DNA of 49,217 nucleotides, taken from a virus. Location: positions 1-49,217 of the IMG/VR virus record IMGVR_UViG_3300032282_003103. One strand, 5' to 3'. Shown here piece by piece: positions 4,581 through 43,540 of this stretch; positions within the stretch are counted from its first letter, which is position 1, and each line of letters starts with the position of its first letter. The position numbers and the translations under genes were made by a program. Below the pieces are notes generated by a model. That model was given only the letters and a program-made list of their open reading frames with translations. It did no database searches and was not told where the DNA came from.

Positions 4581-6623
4581 ATGGCAATTGGTAAGATTAC
4601 AGGTACAATGCTTTACCCCAACCTGGAACGCCAGGGTGCGGATCTTGCCATTGACGGAAATCTTTTCTACTTTGATGTAACTAACCGACGTGTTGGTGTT
4701 AACACATCTACACCGGGTTATGATATTGATGCCGCAGGTAATGTTAGATTAGCTAATTTAAAAATCACCGGTAATGTCATTACCAGCAACACTGGTAAAA
4801 TTAATCTTGGTACTATATCAAATGTTGTTGTGGGTGGCGGCACAGCCAACTACATTATGTACACTGATGGTGCAGGTAACTTAAATTGGGGCAACCTAAA
4901 CGCATTAAGTCAAGCACAAAACTTTTATGCCAACGTAATTCAACTTGGTGCTAACGCATCAGGCTCGTTGGTTAGTAACGCAGTTACATTAACCAGTGGA
5001 ACAAACGTAACAGACAGTATTGCACAGTTAAACTATGTGCTAGGTAAATTAGTTCCACCTAGCCCACCTCCATTTCCTGGTAACGCATCTACTATATCCA
5101 TTGGTGGCCTAACTACATACGGTCGTATGTGTAACTTTACTCAAACAGATAACACCGGTTGGGGCAACTTACAGATGGCGGCTGCCACTTCGTTTAGTAG
5201 TTTACGTACAGGTGCATACAACACATCCGGTACACCAATATTAAACGTTGGTCCAGGTACAACTGGAACAGTTACCGCTTATTTAAATCGCACACCAACT
5301 GGTAATGTAACATTAACAGGTAGTAATGCCAATACCACTAACGGTAACCTGTATGTCTACAACGTACAAGACTATCATAATTTCTTATCATCAGTAACTG
5401 CCGGATTCTGGACAGCGTTCAGCGCCTACGCAACAGGTACAATAACAACAGCCGGGTGGAATAGCATTGCCATTTACGACTCTTACACTAACACAGCAAC
5501 TAATACAGCCTACTGGTACTATGATAATAGTGCGCCAGGTAATCCGACATGGGCCAACGCGGTAGCAATTACTAATAGTAACGTAGTTACCAACGCGGTA
5601 AGTTATTCAAGTACCATTCCACATTTTAACAGTAACGCAATCTTTAGATTAAAAGCCAACATATCTAAACTAAGTGGCGACCAATACTACAGCAGTGATA
5701 CATTCATTGTAGGTTCTGCAGGTGGTGCGTTCTTGGCTCCTACTAGCGTAACATATACACAAGCTGGTGTAACGACTCCATTGGCTAGAAACTTATATGT
5801 AAGTTCTGGTAGTGCATATTTTGAAACAAACGTAGCCATCACAACAGGCATTGGTTCAAGCGCCGCCGCGCCATCATTAACAGCATATAACAGTTACGGA
5901 TCAACTTCACAAACGTTTACCCCATCACAGACAATTTTATATAAAACAGGCAACGTACCAGCATCTGCTAACGTAGGTATTGACGAAACAAATATCTCCG
6001 TTAGATCATCACTTGGTGGCGGATACTCATCAAACGGTGTTCGTATTATTCCTTACCTGAGTGGTAACAGCGACACACCAAGTTATGCTGGTAATGCTAC
6101 TAACGATGCTACATTTGATTCTGTTACCGGTACACTAAATGCTTGGGACGCTAAGGTTGTAGCTGGTGTACTAAAACAGGACACAACCAATTATTCTTTA
6201 GGCACAACATATTTGCCAATAGGACCAAACTTTTCATCGCATAATGCAACACAGTATTTTACATTGAAGTTCCAACGTAGTACATTGAGTGGATTCAGTA
6301 TTGTATATACAGGTACGCTTGCGGGCCTATGGGTAGCATTACCTGGAACAGCAACCGATTCAACAAGTACATTAAACGGTTGGCTAGATGCCAGCGTAGC
6401 CTACAGTGGATCAGGAACACCTGGTGCAAATACTGGTGCAGGCGGTAATGGCAGTAACGGTTGTGCAGTCGGCGGTAATGCAGTACTAAACTCTGCACAA
6501 ACAAACAAAGTGGTTACAGTAACTTTTGGTGGAGCCAGTTCATCCGGCTCAACTAACAACATGATATATGTGAGAGTTAAGTTAACTAGTGGACAAAGTT
6601 TAACTGGATTAAGTATAACATAA
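4581..6623 (+). CDS. Large tail-fibre-like structural protein
   Basis: This 680-residue protein has an N-terminal portion with a repeated DNLFYFD/NRRVGVNTSTPGYDIDAAGNVRL pattern, the common 'world-knowledge' start of phage fibre beta-helices. After it comes a GKINLGTISNVVVGGGTANY segment. The remaining ~500 residues are Gly/Ser/Thr/Asn-rich and probably form a long beta-structured shaft, ending in a Gly-rich C-terminal domain (about 600-680, SGSGTPGANTGAGGNGSNG). A Pro-rich hinge (VPPSPPPFPG) lies near 155-165. It begins 3 nt after the previous stop and ends 1 nt before the next ATG, so these genes are translationally coupled. Receptor-binding or baseplate-attached adhesin is the likely role. 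Confidence 0.75.
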   Translation: MAIGKITGTMLYPNLERQGADLAIDGNLFYFDVTNRRVGVNTSTPGYDIDAAGNVRLANLKITGNVITSNTGKINLGTISNVVVGGGTANYIMYTDGAGNLNWGNLNALSQAQNFYANVIQLGANASGSLVSNAVTLTSGTNVTDSIAQLNYVLGKLVPPSPPPFPGNASTISIGGLTTYGRMCNFTQTDNTGWGNLQMAAATSFSSLRTGAYNTSGTPILNVGPGTTGTVTAYLNRTPTGNVTLTGSNANTTNGNLYVYNVQDYHNFLSSVTAGFWTAFSAYATGTITTAGWNSIAIYDSYTNTATNTAYWYYDNSAPGNPTWANAVAITNSNVVTNAVSYSSTIPHFNSNAIFRLKANISKLSGDQYYSSDTFIVGSAGGAFLAPTSVTYTQAGVTTPLARNLYVSSGSAYFETNVAITTGIGSSAAAPSLTAYNSYGSTSQTFTPSQTILYKTGNVPASANVGIDETNISVRSSLGGGYSSNGVRIIPYLSGNSDTPSYAGNATNDATFDSVTGTLNAWDAKVVAGVLKQDTTNYSLGTTYLPIGPNFSSHNATQYFTLKFQRSTLSGFSIVYTGTLAGLWVALPGTATDSTSTLNGWLDASVAYSGSGTPGANTGAGGNGSNGCAVGGNAVLNSAQTNKVVTVTFGGASSSGSTNNMIYVRVKLTSGQSLTGLSIT

Positions 6624-17058: not shown

Positions 17059-18753
17059 ATGGCACTAACTAGACCGCGCCTTGGGCAATTAATAACTAAT
17101 GTAACCAGTTTAACCGATAACTTAACGGTTATTAATTCTGCGGCTAATCAAGCCAACGTTGACGTTGGTTTTATCTTTAATCGTACAGATGGTGTTGGTA
17201 GTGTTCCTAACGTAGCATTATACTGGAACGAAACAACTAAAGGTTTTACTTTTGCTACTACCACCGACAGCGGAGACGTTGCATTTTCTAATGTTAACGC
17301 AAGTAGCTGGGCAAATATTTCCGCAGGAAACATCAAAGCCAATGCTATTTACTTTGCCAACGGCACACCTTGGTCAACTGGTACTGCATCAGTATCGGGT
17401 ATCAATAGCCAATTACAGTACAACAACAATGGCGTACTTGCTGGCGCTAACGTCAGCTTCTTTAGTTCAAACTTAACCTTAGTAGCCAATGCAAATATTA
17501 CCGCATCGGGTAGTATTATTACCACAGGCAACATTGTTGGTGGCGGTGTACGTTCAACAACTAGTTCAACTCCTCCGGTCAGTCCAACAGTTGGTGATGT
17601 TTGGTACAATAGTTCAACTGATCAAATTTATCGATATACTCAAGATTCAAGTTCTCAGTACTGGTTAAATGTTTATGCTCCAGCAGTATCTAGCAACTCT
17701 ACAGTAGTCACTAGTTCAACTTATAGTAATAGTAACGTAGCCAGTTATTTGGTAACCAACACTGGTAACATTGCCGCAGGTAACATTACTGCTACAGGAA
17801 CAATCCAATATGGATCAGGTCAAGGCGGTTTAGTATTTAGAACACTAGCCGGCGGAACTGGCGCCGCAATTTATAATACTAACATTGTACCAAGTGCTCA
17901 AAACTACGCTATGACCACAGACGGTGCATCAGTTACCTTTAACGCACCAACTGGCGGTGGAATTTACAGTGGCATTAACAATACTATTGTTACAACAGTA
18001 CAGGCAGGAAATTTATCAGTTACTGGAAATTTAATTACCAGTGGATATGGTTACTTTCCTGGCGCTTTCCAAGAAGCTTCTACAGCATCGGGGGTGTTTG
18101 TTGGTAACACTGGTTCAGCAGGCGGCTTAACACCACGTGTGGCATTCTTCAACGGGAACACTACACAAAACTGGCAAATAGACAACTACTACGGTGCATT
18201 CCGTTGGTTTACGCCTGGTGTGTCAAGAATGACATTGGATGGCAATACTAACCAGTTAACTGTTCAAGGTAATGTGTCATCAACAGCAAACGTTATAGCC
18301 TCTGCCGCTATTATCAGTGGTAACATTACAGCCAGCGGCATATATGGCGTTAGTACGCCAAACATTCCAGCGTTCCGTATCACAGGCAACGGCGGAACCA
18401 TTACTGCAACTACAACAGTATCTGGCGGATACATGGTTGTTGATTTTAATCAAGGTAGCTATCTAAATACATCAACCGGCACATTTACAGCACCAATAGC
18501 CGGACTTTATCAAGTTAATCTTTTAACTAGAACAAGTACAAACGCCAACGGTGCAATTATTCAAGCGGTTGTTCAAAAGAACGGTAGCACAAACGTAATC
18601 ATGATTGAATACGGATCTAATACCTCAATGAACCATACTGGTGGTAGTACTGTGGTAAAACTAGCAGTAGGTGATACTCTACAATTTAAAGTATTAGTTG
18701 GCACAATTAGCTTTGACGGCAACGATAACTGGTCAGTGGCCTTTTTAGGATAA
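17059..18753 (+). CDS. Tail-fibre protein with C-terminal C1q-like domain
   Basis: This 564-residue protein has an N-terminal part related to the 13527 protein (VDVGFIFNRTDG; NVALYWNETTKGFTFATT). It continues with a 'GDVWYNSSTDQIYRYTQDSS' module (about 175-200), a 'YSNSNVASYL' module and a 'GNVSSTANVIASAAIISGN' shaft. Residues about 433-564 look like a C1q/TNF-like jelly roll: PAFRITGNGG start, 'NTSTGTFTAPIAGLYQVNLL' core, 'QKNGSTN', 'VVKLAVGDTLQFKV' and a 'WSVAFLG' end. That pattern matches C1q as known from eukaryotic and some bacterial and phage adhesins. C1q-like domains trimerise and bind ligands, so this is a strong receptor-binding-tip candidate. Confidence 0.82.
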   Translation: MALTRPRLGQLITNVTSLTDNLTVINSAANQANVDVGFIFNRTDGVGSVPNVALYWNETTKGFTFATTTDSGDVAFSNVNASSWANISAGNIKANAIYFANGTPWSTGTASVSGINSQLQYNNNGVLAGANVSFFSSNLTLVANANITASGSIITTGNIVGGGVRSTTSSTPPVSPTVGDVWYNSSTDQIYRYTQDSSSQYWLNVYAPAVSSNSTVVTSSTYSNSNVASYLVTNTGNIAAGNITATGTIQYGSGQGGLVFRTLAGGTGAAIYNTNIVPSAQNYAMTTDGASVTFNAPTGGGIYSGINNTIVTTVQAGNLSVTGNLITSGYGYFPGAFQEASTASGVFVGNTGSAGGLTPRVAFFNGNTTQNWQIDNYYGAFRWFTPGVSRMTLDGNTNQLTVQGNVSSTANVIASAAIISGNITASGIYGVSTPNIPAFRITGNGGTITATTTVSGGYMVVDFNQGSYLNTSTGTFTAPIAGLYQVNLLTRTSTNANGAIIQAVVQKNGSTNVIMIEYGSNTSMNHTGGSTVVKLAVGDTLQFKVLVGTISFDGNDNWSVAFLG

Positions 18754-22354: not shown

Positions 22355-24319
22355 ATGGCCACACAATTTCAACTTAGACGAGGAAATGCGACAGTAACTA
22401 GCACGTTTATTGGCGCACCAGGTGAAGTTACTGTTAACACAACTAACAACACCTTAGTTCTGCATGATTCTGTAACCGCAGGCGGTTGGCCTGTTGTAAT
22501 GGCCAACGTTGCCCAAACGGTTTATAACAAAACTCTTGTAACTCCAATGATTACTGGCAATATGTCAGTAACCGGTAATATTATACCTACCCAGGGTAAC
22601 TTATATACCTTAGGTAATCTCGCATACCCATTTAAGAGTTTGTATGTTTCTGGTAATACAATTTATCTTGGTAATGCAATTTTATCAACTACCAGCAACA
22701 GTTTTACAATTATCAACCCAGCTGGTGGTTCATTTAGCGTAACAGGCGACAGTTTAACAGGTGCAACTGGTCAATTTGCTAACCTACAAATTACAAGTAA
22801 TACAGAAGCTACTAGCAACTCAACTGGTGCATTACAAGTAACAGGTGGTGCCAGTGTTGGTGCTAACTTATATGTCGGCGGAAACTTAGTAGTAAGTGGT
22901 AACACCTATGAACTACAACGTGAAGTTGTTACTGTAAGCGAAACCATTGTTGGTAACTCAACTGTTGGTAACTTATCAACTGCCGGCACAATTAATGCTA
23001 CAGGTGCTATATATTCAGGGACTGGTTTCTTCTATAGTAACGGTGCACCAATTACCACAGGCTTCTTAACAAATACCTTTACTGGTAACATGACACTTGG
23101 CAACTTAACTGCCGGTAACATTAAAGTAAACGTACCAATTGATGGCCAAGACAAAACATTCTATGTTGCTAAGAACGGTAACGATAGCAACAGCGGAAAA
23201 CTTAACGCACCATTCTTAACAATTAAAGCCGCATTGGCCGCAGCCGCTACTGCCGGCGCAGGACAAGCCTGGTCGGTTCAAGTTGCTCCTGGCCAATACA
23301 CAGAAAATAATCCAGTCACAATTCCTACTAATGTCAGCTTAATGGGCAATGACATTCGTACAGTATCTATTATACCTCAAAACCCAACACAAGACTTATT
23401 CTATGTAACCAGTGGTTGTTATGTTTGGGGTATTACAATTAAAAATTATCAGGCCAACGGATTTGCCTACAGCTCAAGCACTAGCAGTCAAAACGTATTT
23501 GTTAGCCCGTACATTCAAAACTTAACTTCAAGCACAACATCAACTACAGCCTGTGCCGTTATGATTGACGGAAACTACTCAAGTGCAATTAGTACCAAAG
23601 CTATGATTGTTGGTTTCTTTACAATTATTAACCAAGGTGGTTATGGTATTAGATTAAAGAACGCCGGCTATAGTCAGTTAGTTAACATTTATACTCTAGG
23701 TTGTGAAGTTGGTGTATGGGCTGAATCAGGTTCATTCTGTACACTAAACGGGTCAGACAACGGTGTTGGTAACGTAGGTCTACGTGCTGACGGTTATGGT
23801 CCTGTGTTATGTGCGGCAAATACTTACGGTTATAGTACCAATGGTATATTCAACATTCGTAACTATACTGCTCAGCCACACGTTAACCAAATTATGATTA
23901 TCAATGGCGACTCAAACTATTACAACATTGATACACTAACACAAGTTGATGCACAGACTTGGCAGGTACAAATACAAGAAACATATACAGGTAACTTAGC
24001 ACCAAATACAAACGTAGCATTTTATCAGCGTAGTGCTGTAGTTGCTTCCGCACACACATTTGAATATGTAGGTGCTGGTACAACATTGGCAAATGCTTTA
24101 CCACAATACGGTGGTTTACCAAATGCTAACTTAAAGGTTATTCAGACAGGTGGTGGTCGAGTAACATATACAGGTACAGATGAAAAAGGTAACTTCTACA
24201 TTGGCTCTAACTTAGTAGTTAACCAAGGTACAGGTACCATCAGCGGAGACAGCTTCAACAGAAGTATGTTTGCGTTAATGACACCATATATCTTAGCTCT
24301 CGAAGCCGCAATGTCATAA
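22355..24319 (+). CDS. Tail-fibre protein with Mtd_N-like cap and right-handed beta-helix
   Basis: This 654-residue protein begins with an Mtd_N-like cap (FQLRRGNATVT... GEVTVNTTNNTLVLHDSVTAGG), the domain that attaches tail tips such as the Bordetella phage Mtd protein. Residues about 150-185 carry the TTGAL/VGG repeat module. From about 262 a pectin-lyase-like right-handed beta-helix is suggested by FYVAKNGNDSNSG...APFLTIKAAL, followed by repeated strands (VSLMGNDI, YVWGITIKNY, GIRLKNAGY, GVWAESGS). This start is a hallmark of DUF1565/pectate-lyase-like helices that bind or cleave polysaccharide. No catalytic residues could be assigned. The next gene follows after 12 nt with an AAGGA site. 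Confidence 0.82.
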   Translation: MATQFQLRRGNATVTSTFIGAPGEVTVNTTNNTLVLHDSVTAGGWPVVMANVAQTVYNKTLVTPMITGNMSVTGNIIPTQGNLYTLGNLAYPFKSLYVSGNTIYLGNAILSTTSNSFTIINPAGGSFSVTGDSLTGATGQFANLQITSNTEATSNSTGALQVTGGASVGANLYVGGNLVVSGNTYELQREVVTVSETIVGNSTVGNLSTAGTINATGAIYSGTGFFYSNGAPITTGFLTNTFTGNMTLGNLTAGNIKVNVPIDGQDKTFYVAKNGNDSNSGKLNAPFLTIKAALAAAATAGAGQAWSVQVAPGQYTENNPVTIPTNVSLMGNDIRTVSIIPQNPTQDLFYVTSGCYVWGITIKNYQANGFAYSSSTSSQNVFVSPYIQNLTSSTTSTTACAVMIDGNYSSAISTKAMIVGFFTIINQGGYGIRLKNAGYSQLVNIYTLGCEVGVWAESGSFCTLNGSDNGVGNVGLRADGYGPVLCAANTYGYSTNGIFNIRNYTAQPHVNQIMIINGDSNYYNIDTLTQVDAQTWQVQIQETYTGNLAPNTNVAFYQRSAVVASAHTFEYVGAGTTLANALPQYGGLPNANLKVIQTGGGRVTYTGTDEKGNFYIGSNLVVNQGTGTISGDSFNRSMFALMTPYILALEAAMS

Positions 24320-24331
24320 AAGGAATAGAAC

Positions 24332-24664
24332 ATGCCAGCCGCACTCAATACATTTAGAACAATTACTGCTAACGTTACTACGACAGCTAATACAATTTAT
24401 ACAGCACCAACTGGGTATACTACAGTTGTTCTGTTGGCACAAATAGCTAATACAACCAACGCATTGTTGACAGTAAGTAGTAATCATTTACGTGGTGGCG
24501 TACCTACAGCATTGGTAGCAAATGCACAGGTACCAGTTAGTGATGCAGTAAATTTATTAACAGGAAAATTAGTTTTAGCAACAGCAGATGGAATTAGCGT
24601 AGTGTCTAACGTAGCCACAGGCGCTCAATGTATTTTAAGTATATTAGAAACAGCGAACCCATAA
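24332..24664 (+). CDS. Small virion structural protein
   Basis: This 110-residue protein has an all-beta pattern and no Cys until near its C-terminus (AQCILSILET). Its size and strand layout recall the 104-residue protein at 3832-4146. It sits between two giant fibre genes with small gaps (12 nt before, 3 nt after) and an AAGGA ribosome-binding site. A small cap, collar or decoration role in the fibre complex is plausible, but no named family is recognised. Confidence 0.65.
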   Translation: MPAALNTFRTITANVTTTANTIYTAPTGYTTVVLLAQIANTTNALLTVSSNHLRGGVPTALVANAQVPVSDAVNLLTGKLVLATADGISVVSNVATGAQCILSILETANP

Positions 24665-24667
24665 TAT

Positions 24668-27600
24668 ATGACACAACGAAGCAGATTACTTAGCGGCAAA
24701 GTTCCAGTTACTCCACCAACACAGGTGTCGAGTGACCGGTATAACTTTTTAGATCCGAGCCAGGCAGAACCAAGTCTTGGTATCAGTGCCAACGGCGCGG
24801 TATTGACTACAAATACTTTAGGTACAAGAACTTGGACCACAGCACCATCATTAAGTAATATTGCAATTAATAGTAATGCTAATATTGCTGGTATCGCTAT
24901 TAACAGTACTGGTGTATTTTGGCCTAACGGTCAAAGTTATGGTTCTGGTACTGTTTACTCGAACGCCAACGTACAAGTATTGTTAGGCGGATATTCTGGT
25001 AACATTAACGTAAGCGGTAACATTAACACACAAGGTAAACTTACCGGCGACGTTATTACAGCTAACACAAACTTTTTTACCAGCGGTTATTCAACAGTAA
25101 CTACTGGTCTATATTGGTCTAACGGCGCACCATACTATGGTGATGCAAACGTACAATCGTACATACAAAATTACACTGGTAACATTGGTAGTACTGTAAC
25201 TGGTAACCAACCTTATATTACTAACCTTGGTTACATTGCAAACGCAACTATTACTAGCCAGTTAACCATTGGTGCAAACGCACAGATTGTTTATGCCAAC
25301 GGTCAAGCAATTAGCTACAGTAACGTTAGCGTTGCGGCCGCCTTAGCGGCCTTTGGTGCTCCTATTGTACGTACCGGTAACTTATTTGGTAACGGTATTG
25401 TTGGCGGCATTATTACTTCTAACACAAGCCTGATTACCAACACTGGTATTTTCTGGGCCAACGGCACAAACTATTCTGTATCTATTACAGGTAGTATTCC
25501 TTCATACTCAAACGCCAACGTTGCGGCTAACGTTACTAACTTCTTGCCAACATACACTGGTAACATTGGTTCTGGTGCTGGCTATTATTTTGGTACTATT
25601 GCTACAGCCGCACAACCAAACATTACTAGCCATGGAACATTAAGCTCATTAAACGTCAACGGTGCTACTACACTACAAGGTGGTACCACTACAATTAATG
25701 GTAACTTGGTTGTTAGTGCTACTGGTGCATACTTAAACGATGTTTATGCGGCCAGCAGTTTGAACGTTGCTGGTACTGGCACAGTTATTAATGCCACAGC
25801 TATTTCTACAAACGTATCTAAGATTACACTTGCCAAGACAGCGGCAACAGCACCGGCAGCTAACGTAGCAGGTATCTATACACCATACTCATCATTCTAC
25901 TACGATAGTTCCAACAATAGTTGGGATTCTAACAACGCAATTTTACCATATTGGACTGGTAACTTAAACCTTGGTGGACCTACAAACTATTGGGGCAACA
26001 TTTATGCAACCGGTATTGTTACCGGTTCGTTGAACACCTTCTCTAGTCAAGCCTACTTCCAAACATTCTTTGCTGGCTCAATTAACTCAAGTAGTATTTC
26101 GGCCGGCACAATTGGTAACATTGGTACAACACTTATTGGTTCGTTGGGCACTGGCGCACAGACTAATATTACAAGTGTTGGTACACTAACATCATTACAA
26201 GTATCTGGGTTTGGTAACATCGGTTTAGGTATCTACACAGCAAATATTAAAGCTGGTACAGTCGGTAACGTTGGCACACAATTTATTGGTACTGGCTTAT
26301 CTGTTGATAGTGCTTACATTCCAACATTAAACACTACCTACGCTAATATTACAACAGCTAACTTAGGTGCATTAACAGGCGCATTGAACGTACAAGGTGT
26401 TTCAAGCTTCTACAGCAACATCTTGGCCGCAAGTGGCGTAGCAAGTACAAGTACTGGAACAGGTGCAATTACTGTAACTGGTTCTGGTGGTGTTGGTGTT
26501 GGTGGTAACGTTACAGCCGGCGGCCTAGTTGGTCCGTTGTACGGCACAGTAATGACAGCTAACCAACCAAACATTACTACCGTTGGTACACTAACAAACT
26601 TAACCATTGCAGGTAACTTAACAGTTCAAGGTGCAAGTACAATTATTGGTTCGCAAGACTTAACCATTAACGACTCGGTAATTAACCTACACACATTTGC
26701 TAACCTAGCGGCACTAACAGGCAACGATGGCCGCGACATTGGTTTAAAATTACACTACTACGATACAACATTAGCTGGCGGCGATGATTTGGCGTTTGTT
26801 GGTCGTGCCAATGATACTGGTTACTTAGAGTTTTACACACGCGGTTCAGAAGGCACAGGTAACGTATTCACTGGCGGTACTTATGGTACTATCAAGACTG
26901 GTGAATACATTGCGGCAAATACTACAGCCGCCACAAGTAGTGCAACAGGCGCATTACGTGTCTTTGGTGGTGCAGGTATTGCGGGACAAATTTATTCAGC
27001 TGGTATTAACAGCACAACTGGTAACTTAGTAACAGCGTATCTTGGTACTGTTAATGCTGGTACAGTTAACGGTGCTACTATTGGTAACACTGGTGCCGCA
27101 CTTACTGGTGCAACTGTTACAACAACTGGTGCCGCAACACTTGGTAACGTTATTACTACAAACGGTATTTTCTGGCCAAACGGCGTTAGCTACGGTCAAG
27201 GTACGTTTACAAACTTTAGTACAGCAAACATTGATATCTACTTACCGGGATATCAAGGCAATTTAAGTTCGGCATACACAACAGTAAACAATGATTTACT
27301 AGTACGTGGCACAGCCAACATTGGTAACTTACTAGTACCCGGCACAACTACACTCAATGGCAATGTGTCATTAAATGGAACGGTTACTCACAATGGTAAC
27401 TTAGGTATTAATAGCGGTGCACTTACTATCTATGATAGTATCATAGACATACACACATATGGTAACTTAGCCGCTTGGGCAAGTGATGACGGCAAAGACG
27501 TTGGTATCCGTATGCACTACTACAAAGGTGCAGACAAAATAGCTTTCTTGGGCTGGGAAAATACCACACAAACACTACAATACTTACAGGATGCTACTGA

Positions 27601-28036
27601 AACTAACAGCAACATCTCTGGTACATTTGGTGCTGTACAATTTGGTAGTTTAACCTTATCAAATACAACAACATCTACTAGCACATCAACTGGTGCATTA
27701 TATGTAGCAGGTGGTGCAGGTATAGCCGGTAACGTTAATGCTGGCGCTTACTATAGTAATGCTTACTATTGGGCGGCAAACGGACAAAACATTTTAACTG
27801 GATTAAGTTCTGGTGGTGGCGGTGGTGGCGGATCTGGTACAAGCGGGGCATATTTCTCGGGTGTTACTAACTATGCAAGTAGCCCAGTTACTGATTTAGG
27901 CAACGGAGAAACCTATGTGTTTAGCACAGGTACAGCATTATCTGATCCGTTTGGACAAACCGTTAGTTTATACACATCTGATTGGAACGAGCTCGAAACA
28001 GGGCTAAGTACATTAGATTTAGGTGTACTAACTTGA
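24668..28036 (+). CDS. Giant tail-fibre protein, modular
   Basis: This 1122-residue protein starts MTQRSRLLSGKVPVTPPTQ with an N-terminal segment unlike the other fibres. Then come alternating 'GVFWPNGQSYGSG', 'YSNANVQVLL' and GNI/GNL modules. Two copies of the 'INLH...DIGLKLHYYD' module lie at about 655-725 and 915-985. The first copy shares a 31-bp identical DNA stretch with the gene at 13527. TTGAL/VGG repeats occur at least three times. A run of seven glycines (about 1050) precedes a C-terminal ~70-residue tip rich in Ser/Gly, ending TSDWNELETGLSTLDLGVLT. The gene overlaps no neighbour and a late promoter follows at its very end. Confidence 0.8.
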   Translation: MTQRSRLLSGKVPVTPPTQVSSDRYNFLDPSQAEPSLGISANGAVLTTNTLGTRTWTTAPSLSNIAINSNANIAGIAINSTGVFWPNGQSYGSGTVYSNANVQVLLGGYSGNINVSGNINTQGKLTGDVITANTNFFTSGYSTVTTGLYWSNGAPYYGDANVQSYIQNYTGNIGSTVTGNQPYITNLGYIANATITSQLTIGANAQIVYANGQAISYSNVSVAAALAAFGAPIVRTGNLFGNGIVGGIITSNTSLITNTGIFWANGTNYSVSITGSIPSYSNANVAANVTNFLPTYTGNIGSGAGYYFGTIATAAQPNITSHGTLSSLNVNGATTLQGGTTTINGNLVVSATGAYLNDVYAASSLNVAGTGTVINATAISTNVSKITLAKTAATAPAANVAGIYTPYSSFYYDSSNNSWDSNNAILPYWTGNLNLGGPTNYWGNIYATGIVTGSLNTFSSQAYFQTFFAGSINSSSISAGTIGNIGTTLIGSLGTGAQTNITSVGTLTSLQVSGFGNIGLGIYTANIKAGTVGNVGTQFIGTGLSVDSAYIPTLNTTYANITTANLGALTGALNVQGVSSFYSNILAASGVASTSTGTGAITVTGSGGVGVGGNVTAGGLVGPLYGTVMTANQPNITTVGTLTNLTIAGNLTVQGASTIIGSQDLTINDSVINLHTFANLAALTGNDGRDIGLKLHYYDTTLAGGDDLAFVGRANDTGYLEFYTRGSEGTGNVFTGGTYGTIKTGEYIAANTTAATSSATGALRVFGGAGIAGQIYSAGINSTTGNLVTAYLGTVNAGTVNGATIGNTGAALTGATVTTTGAATLGNVITTNGIFWPNGVSYGQGTFTNFSTANIDIYLPGYQGNLSSAYTTVNNDLLVRGTANIGNLLVPGTTTLNGNVSLNGTVTHNGNLGINSGALTIYDSIIDIHTYGNLAAWASDDGKDVGIRMHYYKGADKIAFLGWENTTQTLQYLQDATETNSNISGTFGAVQFGSLTLSNTTTSTSTSTGALYVAGGAGIAGNVNAGAYYSNAYYWAANGQNILTGLSSGGGGGGGSGTSGAYFSGVTNYASSPVTDLGNGETYVFSTGTALSDPFGQTVSLYTSDWNELETGLSTLDLGVLT
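26799..26829 (+). repeat. 31-bp exact repeat, copy 2
   Basis: Same 31 bases as at 14878-14908, within the first 'INLH...DIGLKLHYYD' module of the 24668 gene. Confidence 0.9.
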
Positions 28037-28042
28037 TAAATA
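28035..28042 (+). promoter_or_regulatory. T4-type late promoter
   Basis: GATAAATA overlaps the stop of the 24668 gene and lies 23 nt before the ATG at 28066, which has an AGAGGA ribosome-binding site. It starts the operon 28066-31908. Confidence 0.8.
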
Positions 28043-28065
28043 AGATATAAGAGGACGATTAAAAA

Positions 28066-28959
28066 ATGCCAACACAAGTACAGTTTAGACGAGGAACAAA
28101 TGCCCAAAACCAAGCATTCACAGGTGCAGTTGGTGAAATTACCGTTGATACAACGCTTGGTACTCTACACGTACATGATGGTGTTACAGCCGGCGGTAAT
28201 ACACTAGTTAGAGCAAACGGTGTTATTTACGGTTCTACAATTTACCAAAATAACGTTCGTGTATTTAAAAACACAACAGCAACATCTGCCCCATCGAGCC
28301 CAGTAGCTGGTGACGAATGGTATGATAGTGGTACTGATATTCTATACAAATATGTATATGACGGTACAAACTATCAATGGGTTGATCAAAGCCAAACATT
28401 GGGCTATTCAACTCTTTCTGTATCAGGTAACGCAACTGTTGGCGGAACGCTAACAGCACAAAACTTTATCTTAACTGGTAACTTAACCCCACAATCAAAC
28501 ATTACAGCAAACATTGGTAGCGTTGGTACATGGTACAGCAACGTTTACGCTGTTCGCTTTAATGGTATTAGTACACAAGCTCAGTACGCCGACTTAGCAG
28601 AAAATTATCTTGCTGACGAAAGTTATGCTCCAGGTACACTAGTTGTATTTGGTGGCGACAAAGAAATTACAACAAGTTCCGTAAGCCACGATCCACGTGT
28701 TGCTGGTGTAATCAGTACTGATCCAGCTTACTTAATGAATTCTGGTGCTGAAGGTTCACCATTAGCACTAACAGGTCGTGTTCCATGTATGGTACAAGGC
28801 CCAGTAGAAAAAGGCGATCGTCTAGTTAACGTAGCCGCTGGCGTAGCCGGTAAATTAAACAAAGAACAATACGAGCCAGGTTGCATCATTGGCAAGAGCC
28901 TAAACAGCATTGAAGACAGCAGTATTAAATTAATTGAAATAGCAGTAGGAAGATACTAA
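28066..28959 (+). CDS. Fibre protein: Mtd_N-like cap plus C-terminal DLAENY domain
   Basis: This 297-residue protein has an N-terminal Mtd_N-like cap (VQFRRGTNAQN... GEITVDTTLGTLHVHDGVTAGG). It then has a 'GDEWYDSGTDILYKYVYDGT' module (about 80-105), one GNATVGG repeat and a C-terminal domain (about 168-297) opening with QYADLAENYL. That domain carries 'PGTLVVFGGDKEITT', 'RVAGVISTDPAYLMN' and 'ALTGRVPCMVQGPVEKGD'. It is common in virion proteins of T4-like aquatic phages and resembles autoproteolytic (peptidase G2-like) chaperone domains of fibres, but the protease Asp/His set cannot be confirmed here. The same domain ends the next gene. Confidence 0.8.
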   Translation: MPTQVQFRRGTNAQNQAFTGAVGEITVDTTLGTLHVHDGVTAGGNTLVRANGVIYGSTIYQNNVRVFKNTTATSAPSSPVAGDEWYDSGTDILYKYVYDGTNYQWVDQSQTLGYSTLSVSGNATVGGTLTAQNFILTGNLTPQSNITANIGSVGTWYSNVYAVRFNGISTQAQYADLAENYLADESYAPGTLVVFGGDKEITTSSVSHDPRVAGVISTDPAYLMNSGAEGSPLALTGRVPCMVQGPVEKGDRLVNVAAGVAGKLNKEQYEPGCIIGKSLNSIEDSSIKLIEIAVGRY

Positions 28960-28960
28960 T

Positions 28961-29662
28961 ATGGCATTCCCATCAAGCCCAATCTCAAACCAACAAGCAA
29001 CTGTTAACGGTGTAATTTATACCTACAACAGTAGTAAAAGTGCTTGGCAACGTACAACCAGTAGTAGTGTTAACCTAACAGTTAATAACGTTAGTGTTAC
29101 TACAGCTATTACAAGTCCAAACTTGTATATCAGCGGCCCAACTACAATTACAGGTACAGTTACATTAACAAGTACACAGCCACTATTGCCAGCATCCAAC
29201 GCCGCAGTAGACTTAGGTAGTAATACACAATGGTTCCGTACATTCTACGGTAAATCAACTCAAGCACAATACGCTGACTTGGCAGAAAACTATTTAGGTG
29301 ATCGCGATGATTACATGCCAGGTACTGTTATGGTCTTTGGTGGCGATAAAGAAGTTACAGCCGCTACAAAAGAATATGATAGTCGTGTAGCAGGTGTAGT
29401 TTCTCAAAACCCAGCATACTTGATGAACGTAGCAGACGTTAACAATCGTTTTATGGTACCAGTTGCGTTAACAGGTCGTGTTCCAACTAAAGTGCAAGGC
29501 CCAGTTACTAAAGGTGAACTATTAGTAACCAGCAATGAATATGGAATAGCACAACGTCTTGACAATGGACGTTTTATTCCTGGTGTAGTTCTTGGTAAAG
29601 CACTTGAAAACATTGAAACTAACACAGTGGAAACTATTGAAGTTGTCATTGGACGGTTCTAA
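28961..29662 (+). CDS. Fibre protein: SPxNxQ cap plus C-terminal DLAENY domain
   Basis: This 233-residue protein is a short fibre whose N-terminus is the 'MAFPSSPISNQ...VNGVIYTY...AW' cap also present at 10868 and 18760. After a ~60-residue shaft it has the DLAENY domain (about 95-233): QYADLAENYLGDRDDYMPG, RVAGVVSQNPAYLMN and GRVPTKVQGPVTKGE. It is nearly colinear with the C-terminal half of the preceding protein, indicating duplication followed by cap exchange. The start is one base after the previous stop (TAATATG). Confidence 0.8.
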   Translation: MAFPSSPISNQQATVNGVIYTYNSSKSAWQRTTSSSVNLTVNNVSVTTAITSPNLYISGPTTITGTVTLTSTQPLLPASNAAVDLGSNTQWFRTFYGKSTQAQYADLAENYLGDRDDYMPGTVMVFGGDKEVTAATKEYDSRVAGVVSQNPAYLMNVADVNNRFMVPVALTGRVPTKVQGPVTKGELLVTSNEYGIAQRLDNGRFIPGVVLGKALENIETNTVETIEVVIGRF

Positions 29663-29676
29663 CATAAGGAACAGCA

Positions 29677-30996
29677 ATGGCTAACATAGTTGGTAGCGGA
29701 TTAGAAATAAGTCAATCATATCTGTCAGACGCTGTATATCCTCCCGGTACAGTAGTAAAACCTGCAGGTAATAACCCATATGAAATAACAATGTGTGTTT
29801 CACCATATTGCACACAGCCAATTGGTGTAGTAAGTACCAACCCAGGTGTAACAGCTGGCCTAGACAATCCTGGCCAAGGTGGCGCAACTATTGCCATAAC
29901 CACGGTAGGTAAAACATACGCACTAGTACAAGGTCCAGCATTTGTTGGTGATAAATTAGTCGCTGGTAATATTCCCGGCACACTAATGAGCCTTGAACAA
30001 AACCCTCCTACTCCAATAAGCGGTGTAACTAACTTTCCCACAGTTATTGGCATCTGTATGGATACTAACTCTACAAACAGCCCACTATCAATTTTAGTAA
30101 CATTAAAATCTGGTACACCAAATCCAGCTGGCAATGTAATTGTTAATAATATTACTAATATTGGAACCAGTACCGTTGGTAGTATTGTTACAACCGGTGG
30201 CGTAACTTGGCCTAACAACGTTCCGTATTCCGCACCCGCAGTATACAACACAATGAACTTTGTTGGTAGTACCACACAACTTTCATCTATGTTTACCAAC
30301 AGTGGTGAGATTGTAACAGTCTCCAATGCATCAGTTAGTGGTACAGTACCGTACTATGTATCTAGCCAAAACATTTTATACTATCAAGGTACATCAGCTG
30401 GTAACTTTGTACTAAACGTACTAGGATCAAACGTACAAAGTTATTCTGGCACCGCAGTCAATGCCCAAGGTACAATCAATAACTATACAATGACCATTGG
30501 TGAAGTAGCCGGCGCCGGTTCAATACAAGTTGGCGCAAAAATTGTAGCCAATGGATACACAATTAACGGTGCAACTTACGCACCAACATTTGCTAATACT
30601 ACAGTAAAATCTCAGACATCTGGATCAACAGGTACAGCAGGTGTATATCTATTAGACAATTGGGCATACTTACCAGCACAGTCGGCAATTTACGCCTACA
30701 ATCCAACATCGGCAACAGGTACTACACTTGATCAAATTCTACAACCAGGACAAAGTGTTAGTATTGCTTTCATTAATACAAACGGCTCAACAGGATACTA
30801 CTTAACTGGTCTACAAATTGATGGTATTAACCAAACTATCAGATGGATCAACGGATCCACTCCTGGTGCTGGTAGCGCCAATGCATTAGACGTTTATAAT
30901 TTTACTATTATAAAAACATACGCAACACAGATTGTAACCCCACCAACGAGGATTCCAGTTTATACAGTACTGGGTAGCGTTTCTAGGTTCGGGTAA
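29677..30996 (+). CDS. Fibre protein with N-terminal DLAENY-like domain
   Basis: This 439-residue protein carries the DLAENY-like domain at its N-terminus (ISQSYLSDAVYPPGTVV, QPIGVVSTNPGVTAGLD, TYALVQGPAFVGDKLV, about 8-115), whereas the two preceding proteins carry it at the C-terminus. After a 'GGVTWPNNVPYSA' module (about 165-180) a beta-rich region follows, ending with an IDGINQTIRWINGSTPGAGSAN segment (about 385-410). The ribosome-binding site is AAGGA and the gap to the upstream gene is 14 nt. Likely a fibre shaft or tip. Confidence 0.75.
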   Translation: MANIVGSGLEISQSYLSDAVYPPGTVVKPAGNNPYEITMCVSPYCTQPIGVVSTNPGVTAGLDNPGQGGATIAITTVGKTYALVQGPAFVGDKLVAGNIPGTLMSLEQNPPTPISGVTNFPTVIGICMDTNSTNSPLSILVTLKSGTPNPAGNVIVNNITNIGTSTVGSIVTTGGVTWPNNVPYSAPAVYNTMNFVGSTTQLSSMFTNSGEIVTVSNASVSGTVPYYVSSQNILYYQGTSAGNFVLNVLGSNVQSYSGTAVNAQGTINNYTMTIGEVAGAGSIQVGAKIVANGYTINGATYAPTFANTTVKSQTSGSTGTAGVYLLDNWAYLPAQSAIYAYNPTSATGTTLDQILQPGQSVSIAFINTNGSTGYYLTGLQIDGINQTIRWINGSTPGAGSANALDVYNFTIIKTYATQIVTPPTRIPVYTVLGSVSRFG

Positions 30997-31005
30997 GGAC
31001 TAATC

Positions 31006-31908
31006 ATGCCAAGATTAGCGGCGTTTGGCGGACAAAGAAGACCGGGTGCTGGCGGCCAATCTCCACCAACACAGCCATTAAGCGTTTCAGCATCAGCACT
31101 TAGTAGCTTTTCTGCAAGCGTAAGTTGGTCAGAGCCAAGTTCCAATGGCGGTTCATCAATAACTTCATACATTGTTACAGCTAGTCCTGGTGGCGCTACT
31201 GCTACTACCAGCGGAACCAGCGTAACAGTACCTGGATTATCACCAATAACAACATATACTTTTACCGTAGTAGCCGTAAACGCTCGAGGTTCAAGTCAAT
31301 CAAGCGTTCCAAGTAATTCGGTAACTACTCCAAACGGTGTAAGTTGGGCTACAGCATCGGGCCAGTTGGCATCAATTTATACACAACAGTCAATGAGTGC
31401 TGTTACGTTATCTGCTTCAAATAATGCTAACCAGTCAATGACATATTCCGTAGTCAGTGGTAGTTTACAATCAGGCCTATCATTAAGTAGTACTAGTGGT
31501 GTAATATCAGGTACCCCAACTGGTGTCAGCGATTATTCTAGTAATACTTGTTCGTTTACTGTGCGAGCAACAGCGTCTGGTGGCGACTATGCAGACCGAG
31601 CTTTTACTATTCTAACAACCAGTCGTTATGTTGGTTACAGTTGTTTTACAACCAACGAAGGATACACACTTAGCGGAAGCTCGCCAAGTGGTTATACATT
31701 TAACCGTGTTGACTTCTGCTCATATGGTACTCCAAACGGTGGTTGCGGTGGCTTTAGCTATAGCGGATGTAACTCAGGCAGTTCTAACGGTTATAACCCA
31801 ACACCTACAACATCATTCTCTGTGGGAGCCAACAACGGAACATGGGGCGACCCTTGCGGCGGTACATACAAACGCATGTACATTCAATTAAGCTATGGAC
31901 CATTCTAA
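31006..31908 (+). CDS. Adhesin with FN3, Ig-like and galactose/rhamnose-lectin-like domains
   Basis: This 300-residue protein is the last of the fibre operon. A fibronectin type III domain covers about 20-109 (VSWSEPSSNGGSSITSYIVTA ... TTYTFTVVAVNARG). A He_PIG Ig-like domain covers about 113-205 (SGSLQSGLSLSSTSGVISGTPTG). The C-terminal ~90 residues (208-300) resemble the SUEL-type galactose/L-rhamnose-binding lectin domain: 'FCSYGTPNGGCGGFSYSGC' near 237-255 and 'GTWGDPCGGTYKRMYIQLSY' near 278-297, with cysteines 238, 247, 255 and 284. In the lectin family these positions are 'FASYGTPxGxCG...C' and 'DPCxGTxKxLxV'. The match is good, but the middle of the domain is shorter. A sugar-binding receptor-recognition role is likely. 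Confidence 0.8.
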   Translation: MPRLAAFGGQRRPGAGGQSPPTQPLSVSASALSSFSASVSWSEPSSNGGSSITSYIVTASPGGATATTSGTSVTVPGLSPITTYTFTVVAVNARGSSQSSVPSNSVTTPNGVSWATASGQLASIYTQQSMSAVTLSASNNANQSMTYSVVSGSLQSGLSLSSTSGVISGTPTGVSDYSSNTCSFTVRATASGGDYADRAFTILTTSRYVGYSCFTTNEGYTLSGSSPSGYTFNRVDFCSYGTPNGGCGGFSYSGCNSGSSNGYNPTPTTSFSVGANNGTWGDPCGGTYKRMYIQLSYGPF

Positions 31909-32107
31909 TACTTTAGATAAACGATATTTTTTATCAGATGAGCAAGTAGAAACACGTATGTCAATTTGCCGTTTGTGTGAACACCGCATAGAAGTTACAA
32001 ATATGTGCGGTAAATGCTTTTGTTTTTTACCCTGGAAATTGCGTATGGCACCTGCTAGTTGCCCTGAAGGTAAATGGATGCACGTTACAGTAGCTACTAC
32101 ATCATAA
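31895..32107 (+). CDS. Small Cys-rich (zinc-ribbon-like) protein
   Basis: This 70-residue protein has cysteines at 25, 28, 38, 41, 43 and 56 in a C-x2-C...C-x2-C-x-C...CP pattern, which fits zinc binding. An MSICRLCEH segment leads the first pair, and GKWMHV follows the last Cys. The start overlaps the lectin gene by 14 nt, so it depends on translation of that gene. Similar mini-proteins sit behind fibre genes in aquatic T4-like phages. Its function is unknown; a fibre-assembly factor is conceivable but unproven. Confidence 0.65.
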   Translation: MDHSNTLDKRYFLSDEQVETRMSICRLCEHRIEVTNMCGKCFCFLPWKLRMAPASCPEGKWMHVTVATTS

Positions 32108-32116: not shown

Positions 32117-32857
32117 ATGCAAACACTAAAAAGACTTTACCGTTCAAACTACGCAGGCGAGCACGTAATTAGTACGTTATCGCTAAACAGTAACGAGTGG
32201 AATCCCGAAACAGAATATGTTGATAATGGCGTATTCAACACCCACACCACTAGCCAAGCAGTAGCAATTGGTAATGGCGAAAGTCGCAAAGGTTTTGATC
32301 TAGGACATATTACTAGACACAGTGGCGGATTACTGGCAGCTGATAAATTACAAAGCTATGGATGTAATGCTCTATACAGAGATTTTCATCCTGACTTTTT
32401 AGTATTGTCTGGAAAAGAAATTACTCGAGAAGTAGCAACTAGCCGTTACGTTGAAGATCATATCGTCTATGGCAATGCTGATGTGTTATTAGAGTATCCT
32501 AACCGTTTATATTTGCTACCACAAAATTTATACTATGATGCTGGCGCATTAGCAGTATACCTAGCCTGCTTTGATGGTCATACAAAGATTTTCATGGTTG
32601 GCTACGATGGTTATCCTACTAACGGACCGGTGAACAATATCTATAAAGACACCAATGGATATCTAAGTTCATCAGATACACAAAACGGTACTTGGTTTAC
32701 TAAGAGTCTTGAGATGGTGATGAGTGTTTACAATGACGTTGAGTTTATTCGTGTTATGCCACACATTACACACTACATTCCTGAAGAATGGCAACGTTGT
32801 CCAAACTTTAGACAAATTGATTACCGCGGATTTGCAATCGAAGCAGATTTAGGTTAA
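32117..32857 (+). CDS. Rossmann-like protein resembling DUF115/MptE-type sugar or phosphate enzymes
   Basis: This 246-residue protein has a 'VAIGNGESRKGFDLG' segment (about 48-63). It is followed by 'YGCNALYRDFHPDFLVLSGKE' (about 78-98) and 'FDGHTKIFMVGYDGYP' (about 152-168). The IGNGxSR plus YGCNxLYxDxxPD pattern is typical of a phage family loosely related to the DUF115/6-hydroxymethylpterin-diphosphokinase-like fold, which also includes glycan-active enzymes. It follows the lectin gene and has its own leaderless late promoter. Its 3' end overlaps the convergent Nudix gene by 4 nt. A glycan-related role is an inference from neighbourhood. Confidence 0.62.
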   Translation: MQTLKRLYRSNYAGEHVISTLSLNSNEWNPETEYVDNGVFNTHTTSQAVAIGNGESRKGFDLGHITRHSGGLLAADKLQSYGCNALYRDFHPDFLVLSGKEITREVATSRYVEDHIVYGNADVLLEYPNRLYLLPQNLYYDAGALAVYLACFDGHTKIFMVGYDGYPTNGPVNNIYKDTNGYLSSSDTQNGTWFTKSLEMVMSVYNDVEFIRVMPHITHYIPEEWQRCPNFRQIDYRGFAIEADLG

Positions 32858-39931: not shown

Positions 39932-42900
39932 ATGGCACTTACATCACCAGGAATTCAAATTTCCGTAACAGACCAGAGTCAATATGTACCCAATCAGGTA
40001 GGCTCGGTTCCGTTAGTATTGTTAGCAACAGAACAAGACAAGTCTTACAATGGCTCACCAGCCACAGGTACTTCTAAAGCTAATGCTGGTAAATTGCTGA
40101 GTTTTACAAGTCAACGTGACTTAGTAACAGCAATGGGAACACCAATGTTCCAACTTAGTTCTGCTGGTACACCAGTAAACGGAAGTGAAATAAACGAATA
40201 CGGTTTAATGGCAGCTTATAGTGCCTTAGGCCTTGGTAATCAATTATATGCTATCCGTGCTGATATTGACTTAGCACAATTAAAAGGTACTGCTAACCGT
40301 CCAGTTGGTATGCCCGAAGATGGTTCTTACTGGTTAAATTTAGCAACAACTGAATTTGGTCTATATTCATTGAATCGCGGTACTAGCGGTTTTGATCACG
40401 TCAATCCTTTATTAATTACTGATCAAACACTATTAGAGAATGATCCGTTTGGTTATTACGGTGGTAACCGTGTTGCTTATCCAAAATCTAGTGTTGGCTC
40501 AATTGGTAGCTATGCATTAGTATTTGTTAACGATCCAGACAGTTCTGGTATCTATGGTGCCGCCGGCGCAAGCACAAAGAATATTCGTTTGTTTTATAAA
40601 GCAGGACGTTCTGGTAGTGGCACAAGCACTAACACAGCTCCTGGTATTATGGCAGACCGTACAACTCCATTAACAAACCGCTGGGTTGAAGTTGGTAGCC
40701 CTAACTGGCAACGTAGTATTCCGGTAGTTATGACTAGCACTATTGATGGTGCTGTAACTATTGCAAATACTGTTACAGATAATTCTGTATTGTTCCGTAT
40801 CAATGGTGTAAACATTGTTATCAACAGCACAAACTTTGCAGGCTTTAGTGCAGGCACAGTATTCCCAATGACAGCGGCCAAACTAGCCAGTGCAATTAAC
40901 ACAGCCAATGGTGGTTCAGGCGTTCCTGGTGTGTATGCACAGAACGTAAGTGGTTCTTTATACCTTTATGTAACAAGTGCCGCAGACAGCACAGGTACAT
41001 ACTCTGGTACAAATCACCCAGACGGTGCAATCGTTTGTTCTAACTTCTTAGCAAGTTCAGGTCTAACAGCCGCAGGTGTTGGCTTGCCAACAACAACCAT
41101 TGGTTGCCCATACTTCTTCTATGGCGACTATGCAAGTGCTCCTGTAAATGCAAGCAGTTCATACTTAGGTTGGGGTATTGCTAGTAGCGATCCTCTACCA
41201 CGTCCAAGTGGTTCTATCTGGTGGAAGACAAGCCCATTAGGTGGCGGTTGGAACCCGGCACTACAAAAATACAGCGCCAGCACTGGTCAGTGGCAAACAG
41301 TTTCTGCACCAATGTATCCATATCTAACTGATGCGATCTATGGCTTAGATCCAACAGGTGGTGGTGTAAACATTCAAGCAGGTCAGACTGTAGCACAATA
41401 CGGTGTTGTTGATTCTACATACAATAGCTTACGTTTCAACGTAAAACTATCTACATCAACAGCAAGTGCAACTGGTGGTGTTATTGATTATAACACTTCG
41501 GGTTATGCCAGCTTACTAAAAGCAGACACAAGTCAATACTTTACTGTATCGGCTACACAACCTGGTAGCTACAGATTGACTCGTTATGGTACTATTTCAA
41601 CTTCTGGTTCAAACCCTGCAACTACACCTGCTAGTATTGTAAACCAAATCTTAGCTTTAAACATTCCTTATGTTACAGCTAGTTTGACTACAAACGGTGA
41701 TAGTTCTGGTACTATCCCAAGCACAGAAACACAAACAATTACATTGACACATACATTAGGTGGTCAAATTGTATTAACACCAAGTGATGTATCTGGTAAC
41801 CCACTAGGTTCACCAAACACATTGTTGAAGCACCTAGGTTTCCGTAGCGAAGCTAACCCAGCATTGAACGGTACTGGTTACGAAATTAACCCATTAACTG
41901 GCGAAGTTAGTATCCAAAACTGGATGAGCTTGACAGAAGATGTTGGTTACTCTAACACTTCACCATACACTTCACCAGCAGATAGTACATACTGGTATTA
42001 CAGCAACTTTGCTGATATCGACGTTATGATCAATGACGGCGGTACATGGAAAGGCTACCACAATGTACAAACTGATATCCGTAATTACCCATTGGGCAAC
42101 ACAGATCCAAACGGTGTTATTGTTTCAGCAAGTGCTCCAACAAGCCAAACTGATGCAACAGCATTAGTAGCTGGTGATTTATGGTTAGACTCTAGCGATT
42201 TAGTTAACTATCCAAAACTAAGCCGCTGGACAGGTACAGTATGGGTAGCAATTGACAATACAGATCATGTAACTAGCAATGGTATCGTGTTTGCTGATGC
42301 ACGTTGGGACACTAACGGTCAGACTGATGTTGTTAACGGCGGATACCCAAGTGTATCATCATTATTAACTTCTAACTACCTTGACCAAGACGCTCCTGAT
42401 GCACGTTTGTATCCAAAAGGTACATTGTTGTTTAACACACGTCGTTCTGGATTTAACGTTAAGCGTTATGTTAAGAACTACTTTAACAGCGTTAGCTTCC
42501 CAAATCCTGGTATCAAACCAGGCACAGCTGGAACATTACCATCTGTAGCAGATTCATGGGTAAGCACTAGCGGTCTTGACAACAAAGGTCGTATGTTAGC
42601 TGGTACAAAAGCACAAAGAGCAATCGTTGTTGAAGCACTTAAAGGTGCAGTAGATAGCAATTTATCTGTGCGTGAAGAAAGCTATAACTATAACATTATT
42701 TGTGCTCCTGGATATCCTGAGTTGATTCCTAACATGGTTGCATTAAATGATGACCGTAGCGACACAGCATTTATCATCGGTGACACACCATTGACATTGG
42801 CTCCAAGCGTTACAGAAATTACTAGCTGGGAAACAGATGCAGATGGTTCTGGATTAGCAACAGCAAGTCCATACCTAGCAGTATACTATCCAGCTGGTTT

Positions 42901-43540
42901 AACAAATGATTTAAGCGGTAACTCAGTAGTAGTACCTGCTAGCCACGCTGTTCTACGTACATTCTTGTACAACGACAACGTAAGCTATCCATGGTTTGCT
43001 CCAGCTGGTGTACACCGTGGCTTAGTTAATAACCTAAGCGACATTGGTTATGTTGATGCCGCAAGTGGTAACTTCGTACACAACGCAGTTAACCAAGGTT
43101 TACGTGATGCATTGTACAACATGAATATTAACCCAATCACTCAGTTACCTGGTGTTGGTTTAGTAATTTGGGGTCAAGAAACACGTAGTGGTGACGCAAC
43201 TGCACGTAACCGTGTAAACGTAGTTCGTTTAGAAAACTATCTACGTGTAATCTTTAAGCGTGTAAGCAATGGATACTTATTTGAACCTAACGATACAATT
43301 ACTCGTAAGAGTATCGCAGGCCAGATTGAAAGTGCATTGCATGACTTATTAAGCAAGCGTGGTTTGTATGACTTCTTAGTAATTTGTGATACAAGTAATA
43401 ATACTTCTAGCACAATCGCTAATAATCAATTATACGTAGACGTAGCAATTGAACCAATGAAGGATGTTGAATTTATTTACATTCCTATTGCATTGTATAA
43501 CCCAGGTGCTATTGCAACACTAGGTCAACAATCAACTTAA
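39932..43540 (+). CDS. 18: Tail sheath protein gp18-like, oversized
   Basis: This 1202-residue protein is nearly twice the length of T4 gp18 (659). The N-terminus MALTSPGIQISVTDQSQ matches T4 'MTLLSPGIELKETTVQS'. The C-terminal ~300 residues are clearly sheath-like: 'YPWFAPAGVHRG' (T4 'QTWMSPAGYNRG'), 'MNINPITQLPGVGLVIWGQET' (T4 'EAINPVTGTGGDGYVLYGDKT'), 'RNRVNVVRLENYL' and 'LVICDTSNNT'. The middle ~600 residues hold insertions, including three W-rich modules (DNA about 40306-40400, 41200-41310 and 42171-42260; for example 'GDLWLDSSDLVNYPKLSRW'). Such insertions would project from the contractile sheath. It has its own late promoter and an AAGGAT ribosome-binding site. Confidence 0.92.
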   Translation: MALTSPGIQISVTDQSQYVPNQVGSVPLVLLATEQDKSYNGSPATGTSKANAGKLLSFTSQRDLVTAMGTPMFQLSSAGTPVNGSEINEYGLMAAYSALGLGNQLYAIRADIDLAQLKGTANRPVGMPEDGSYWLNLATTEFGLYSLNRGTSGFDHVNPLLITDQTLLENDPFGYYGGNRVAYPKSSVGSIGSYALVFVNDPDSSGIYGAAGASTKNIRLFYKAGRSGSGTSTNTAPGIMADRTTPLTNRWVEVGSPNWQRSIPVVMTSTIDGAVTIANTVTDNSVLFRINGVNIVINSTNFAGFSAGTVFPMTAAKLASAINTANGGSGVPGVYAQNVSGSLYLYVTSAADSTGTYSGTNHPDGAIVCSNFLASSGLTAAGVGLPTTTIGCPYFFYGDYASAPVNASSSYLGWGIASSDPLPRPSGSIWWKTSPLGGGWNPALQKYSASTGQWQTVSAPMYPYLTDAIYGLDPTGGGVNIQAGQTVAQYGVVDSTYNSLRFNVKLSTSTASATGGVIDYNTSGYASLLKADTSQYFTVSATQPGSYRLTRYGTISTSGSNPATTPASIVNQILALNIPYVTASLTTNGDSSGTIPSTETQTITLTHTLGGQIVLTPSDVSGNPLGSPNTLLKHLGFRSEANPALNGTGYEINPLTGEVSIQNWMSLTEDVGYSNTSPYTSPADSTYWYYSNFADIDVMINDGGTWKGYHNVQTDIRNYPLGNTDPNGVIVSASAPTSQTDATALVAGDLWLDSSDLVNYPKLSRWTGTVWVAIDNTDHVTSNGIVFADARWDTNGQTDVVNGGYPSVSSLLTSNYLDQDAPDARLYPKGTLLFNTRRSGFNVKRYVKNYFNSVSFPNPGIKPGTAGTLPSVADSWVSTSGLDNKGRMLAGTKAQRAIVVEALKGAVDSNLSVREESYNYNIICAPGYPELIPNMVALNDDRSDTAFIIGDTPLTLAPSVTEITSWETDADGSGLATASPYLAVYYPAGLTNDLSGNSVVVPASHAVLRTFLYNDNVSYPWFAPAGVHRGLVNNLSDIGYVDAASGNFVHNAVNQGLRDALYNMNINPITQLPGVGLVIWGQETRSGDATARNRVNVVRLENYLRVIFKRVSNGYLFEPNDTITRKSIAGQIESALHDLLSKRGLYDFLVICDTSNNTSSTIANNQLYVDVAIEPMKDVEFIYIPIALYNPGAIATLGQQST

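Follow-up and report, generated by a model that had tools for sequence, protein, structure and literature searches.

Organization of the locus

The window analysed here is the whole of an IMG/VR virus record of 49,217 bases, which is a fragment of the genome of a phage known from metagenomic DNA only. This phage, a T4-superfamily (jumbo-type) myophage, falls into the T4-related group with contractile tails; genes for a sheath stabilizer, an Ad2-type adaptor and the tube are found in the window, and the nearest matches of its tail sheath are those of the jumbo phages Atu_ph07, Phosso and PA5oct (43-45% identity over ~55% of the protein). The sheath protein (39932-43540) is unusually long, at 1202 aa, and its database relatives span just ~55-64% of it.

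The gene at the center of this study (Table 1) is encoded among tail-fibre genes, as are those of several relatives: the run of six genes upstream has PHROGs matches to tail fibre and tail proteins and a Pfam match to Mtd_N. Two neighbours in this run, the 297- and 233-aa proteins at 28066-29662, share PHROGs assignments and resemble each other in their C-terminal halves (AQYADLAENYL... to ...IGRY/IGRF), which suggests a duplication; the first of the pair begins with the Mtd_N domain. The same tail region also encodes a 564-aa protein (17059-18753) whose C-terminal domain is of the C1q type (PF00386, residues 461-546, E 6.6e-8), another animal-like head domain among the fibre set of this phage. 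The sequence-only reading had placed our gene last in a fibre operon; among the long genes of the fibre run it is indeed the last, but two further open reading frames follow on the same strand, and the product of the second, beside the lectin gene, is possibly glycosyltransferase-like.

Table 1. Features of the adhesin gene and its surroundings, in window positions
Feature	Position	Strand	Basis and remarks
Run of six upstream genes (654, 110, 1122, 297, 233, 439 aa)	22355..30996	+	Short gaps; several of tail-fibre type
Predicted modular tail adhesin gene	31006..31908	+	Open reading frame, 300 aa; Pfam domains; AF2 full-length model
Fibronectin type III (FN3) domain	31072..31317	+	Residues 23-104; PF00041, E 1.5e-14, above cut-off
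He_PIG Ig-like domain	31387..31614	+	Residues 128-203; PF05345, E 2.4e-7, above cut-off
SUEL / rhamnose-binding-lectin (RBL) domain	31633..31905	+	Residues ~210-300; phmmer and profile against PDB, AF2, Foldseek, shuffle control
Cys213 + Cys247	31642..31746	+	Predicted disulfide in place of Cys1-Cys3, shifted (domain C8-C42); covariation
Glu218	31657..31659	+	Aligns to CSL3 Glu7 / latrophilin-1 Glu42, sugar O3/O4 contact; Glu in 91/97 viral domains
DPCGGTYK, loop 2	31849..31872	+	Asp282, Gly286, Lys289 = CSL3 Asp79, Gly83, Lys86 (alignments; literature positions)
70-aa Cys-rich ORF, DUF6171-like	31895..32107	+	Shares 14 bases with the adhesin 3' end; PF19668, E 9e-4, below cut-off
246-aa protein	32117..32857	+	phrog_30607 (unknown function); weak alpha-2,3-sialyltransferase family match, E 0.014

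From its N-terminus the protein consists of a low-confidence segment, the FN3 domain, the He_PIG domain and a C-terminal SUEL lectin domain, and the FN3 and Ig-like domains named in the sequence-only reading are confirmed by Pfam; the motifs described for residues 208-300 are likewise there, as FCSYGTPNGGCGG, a further Cys in FSYSGC, and DPCGGTYKRMYI. The domains are ordered in the full-length AF2 model, residues 1-22 fall below pLDDT 50, and no recognised virion-anchoring domain was found in the N-terminal attachment region. Because the overall pLDDT of this model is just 71 (moderate), the relative placement of the domains is not interpreted.

Homology and fold of the C-terminal domain

The C-terminal domain (~210-300) is homologous to the SUEL/RBL/Gal_Lectin family. 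The profile search that had been proposed as a check gave a divided answer: PF02140 (SUEL_Lectin / Gal_Lectin) does match, with an E-value of 0.011 for the whole protein and 0.0011 for the isolated domain, but its 19.7 bits lie under the Pfam cut-off of 31.4, and Pfam alone would therefore not settle SUEL identity. The curated threshold is a cut-off for naming, not a biological feature, and it is passed by four relatives of the domain (L006, L055, L014 and L130).

Sequence comparison with proteins of solved structure is more telling. Searching PDB sequences by phmmer with the 95-aa C-terminus recovered sea urchin SUL-I (2.6e-12), Flavobacterium johnsoniae RemA (1.5e-8), salmon CSL3 (6e-7) and rice beta-galactosidase 1 (BGal1; 2.5e-5), and a 46-sequence profile run against the PDB returned 14 distinct sequences, every one of them a SUEL, RBL, latrophilin or plant beta-galactosidase domain. 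A SUEL profile built from cellular bacterial sequences only, without the window sequence, scored the window domain at 82.2 bits (2.7e-24), against 8.4 for the best of ~2000 shuffles; with a profile of two sea urchin SUL-I domains only, the values were 24.1 and 7.9 bits. Chance or low complexity as the source of the match is ruled out by this shuffle control. The YG(R) and DPCxGTYK motifs of the family are present as SYGTP and DPCGGTYKR, the Arg of YGR being replaced by Thr, as it is in RemA.

Structural comparison with SUEL lectins had been named beforehand as the refuting test, and it came out on the side of the family. The domain is modelled by AF2 with a pLDDT of 93.3, and the best 14 Foldseek matches of this model in the PDB are all SUEL/RBL/Gal_Lectin structures with a probability of 1.00 (query-normalised TM-score up to 0.78), the probability dropping to 0.47 at the 15th; the model and these matches together give the window domain the alpha/beta fold of RBLs.

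These comparisons bear directly on one other reading, that the protein is a gp38-type tip adhesin, a small separate protein with glycine-rich loops that caps the long tail fibre and resembles SUEL superficially. Gene 38 of T2 and S16 is a small gene directly after the fibre genes, and the window gene is also small, comes right after fibre genes and encodes Gly/Ser/Asn-rich loops; but the strong matches are all to the SUEL family, and we consider this reading very improbable. Homology to gp38 is refuted by the profile search and by Foldseek, both of which returned no gp38 entry from the PDB, as did phmmer. By analogy, the adhesin could nevertheless occupy the same place as gp38.

Cysteines and the predicted sugar pocket

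Equivalents of only two of the four canonical disulfides (C1-C3, C2-C8, C4-C7 and C5-C6) are present in the window domain. The counterpart of C4-C7 is C255-C284 (domain C50-C79), and both of its cysteines are invariant; that of C1-C3 is the Cys213/Cys247 pair, whose members across unique relatives are both present in 42, both absent in 84 and mismatched in 2 (42:0:2:84), a count inflated by shared descent. The four cysteines are accordingly predicted from sequence to form two covarying or invariant pairs that match canonical disulfides. A further cysteine, Cys238 in FCSYG, has no obvious partner, and loop 1 is without the Cys5-Cys6 pair of animal lectins. Since bacterial RemA has the same reduced cysteine set, the full four disulfides are a mark of the animal lectins and not of the family at large.

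The primary sugar site of CSL3 consists of Glu7, Tyr27, Asn74, Asp79, Gly83 and Lys86 (PMC3269628), and that of latrophilin-1 includes Glu42, Tyr63, Gly117 and Lys120, where binding is abolished or much weakened even by the substitutions E42D, E42Q and K120R (PMC2430599). All six CSL3 positions are matched in the window, by Glu218, Tyr240, Asn277, Asp282, Gly286 and Lys289 (E13, Y35, N72, D77, G81 and K84 in domain numbering). The conservation of E13 (in 91/97 viral domains) and Y35 (96/97) is not a search artefact, as both positions lie outside the search patterns; that of N72, D77, C79, G81 and K84 does not count as independent, these being the letters of the DPC loop with which the scans were seeded.

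Sequence does not prove lectin activity, since a single RBL domain may bind weakly, and there are members of the family that no longer bind sugar or have a protein as partner (latrophilin; PMC2430599). The window domain might thus have kept the SUEL fold while serving as a fibre cap or protein-protein module without sugar binding, in the manner of the latrophilin lectin domain and teneurin. Latrophilin-type RBLs do have protein partners, teneurin and TOL-1 complexes are among the PDB fold matches, and many receptor RBLs lack the Glu or Lys; however, the loss of one or the other is typical of non-binding members (PMC2430599), whereas the six residues are intact here and in 90 of the 97 unique viral domains. 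On balance we regard a module of this kind as unlikely.

Distribution among phage contigs

Related SUEL domains were found by one pattern on at least 155 IMG/VR contigs, some of which may be cellular; phage status was checked for L002, L116, L118 and L130 (PHROGs on neighbouring genes) and for L012 (Pfam). The closest relatives, L002 and L116/L117 (61-62% identity), carry He_PIG followed by a C-terminal SUEL domain ending in YGPF and form one group with the window domain (support 0.96). The SUEL gene lies directly after a long-tail-fibre distal-subunit-like gene in L002; just ahead of neck genes (Ad2, Hc2), sheath stabilizer, TerL, sheath and tube in L116; between tail-fibre genes in L003/L118; and after short-fibre/collar genes in L130. 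In L012 the domain is inserted into a GpJ-like tip protein. From these different contexts it appears that the SUEL domain moves between anchors. The L116 contig, from a T4-like phage, also holds a 145-aa ORF that by eye is Dps/ferritin-like (5023-5460), between gp16-like and terminase genes.

Gene position also bears on the proposal that the lectin sits on the capsid or targets glycans other than the infection receptor, for instance polysaccharides of mucus, algae or particles, keeping the phage near its hosts and having no part in host choice. Capsid proteins with Ig-like or FN3 domains are known to stick to mucus, and domains similar to ours occur in many proteins of Bacteroidota and other bacteria, including the adhesin RemA. 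Against it, several phages carry the gene among or next to their genes for fibre, neck and sheath, and one contig (L012) has the domain inserted in the tip protein; we think such a role distinctly unlikely.

Cellular relatives of the domain are found mainly in Bacteroidota, with some in Myxococcota and others. Many SUEL domains of viral contigs (L008, L014, L015, L023 and L026) belong to proteins that combine a Pro/Ser/Thr-rich stalk with a hydrophobic C-terminus and look like cell-surface proteins, be they phage or cellular. In BFVD the best matches were two uncultured Caudovirales proteins named SUEL in UniProt and one Chrysochromulina virus protein. Searches by tblastn gave no real match among 50,697 annotated phage records, and no isolated phage is known with such a protein; the search itself works, since the window's tail sheath, used as a positive control, matched 2214 of the records. 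A single-sequence scan of viral contigs likewise gave zero matches, an alignment query being required to detect the relatives. PHROGs v4 holds no family matching the domain, and phage annotation pipelines that depend on PHROGs therefore miss it. In an open-access library of papers none on phage-tail SUEL domains was found, which is not proof that there is none. The sequence-only reading knew of no widespread use of this fold in T4-like fibres, and in this it has to be corrected: the fold is fairly common in uncultured phage contigs.

Proposed function

We propose that the gene encodes a modular receptor-binding adhesin of the tail, whose SUEL/RBL lectin is predicted to bind rhamnose/galactose-type surface glycans; this we hold to be probable. 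Homology, fold, pocket residues, modular architecture and, in several phages, fibre-gene context are what was observed, and from them we infer presence in the virion, a position at the fibre or baseplate tip, sugar binding and the identity of the sugar; the product could in principle also be a secreted or head-attached protein. The FN3 and Ig-like domains would act as spacers that display the C-terminal lectin, which would bind a terminal sugar with the hydroxyl pattern of rhamnose/galactose on the host (in an O-antigen, capsule or S-layer glycan). Contact would be made through the conserved Glu-Tyr-Asn-Asp-Gly-Lys pocket, formed by loop 2 and the beta1-beta2 turn, and the outcome would be reversible host recognition.

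The family is a known one in an uncharacterised setting, and annotations as SUEL already exist in databases. Evenly balanced, in our judgment, is the broader reading that SUEL/RBL lectins are a widespread, unrecognised class of tail adhesins of uncultured phages: a C-terminal or inserted cassette swapped among unrelated tail proteins (T4-like fibre-associated proteins, GpJ-like tips and collar-region proteins) that would read rhamnose/galactose-type glycans of the host through the pocket of animal egg lectins. In this way phage host recognition is tied to a lectin fold that is well understood in animals and plants and whose sugar contacts are known, which gives an unusually specific prediction, open to testing, of the receptor chemistry of uncultured phages with unknown hosts.

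Comparison with known systems

Among the phage relatives, L002 and L116/L117 differ at the N-terminus, L002 having a fibre-type start and L116 four He_PIG matches and no FN3. The UniProt proteins A0A6J5NGG5 and A0A6J5PD65 (uncultured Caudovirales), which bear the SUEL name, have the same fold and are 33-34% identical, but they are uncharacterised 650-aa proteins of another architecture. With the RBLs of sea urchin and fish (SUL-I, 5h4s; CSL3, 2zx0) the window domain shares the fold, the YG and DPCxGTYK motifs, the six pocket residues and the Cys4-Cys7 equivalent; it differs from them in having no Cys2-Cys8 or Cys5-Cys6, in YGT for YGR, and in occurring just once, on a phage fibre protein. The C-terminal domain of rice beta-galactosidase 1 (5iaz) is the best Foldseek match and has the FASxGTPxG and DPC landmarks in common with ours, but is part of an enzyme and has more disulfides. 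The closest solved bacterial relative is RemA (8gl6), the gliding-surface lectin of F. johnsoniae, with which the window domain shares the FASYGTPxG / DPCxGTxKRLYI pattern; the lectin domain of RemA, which according to a review binds rhamnose/galactose (PMC11205867), is in contrast internal to a cell-surface adhesin of 1436 aa.
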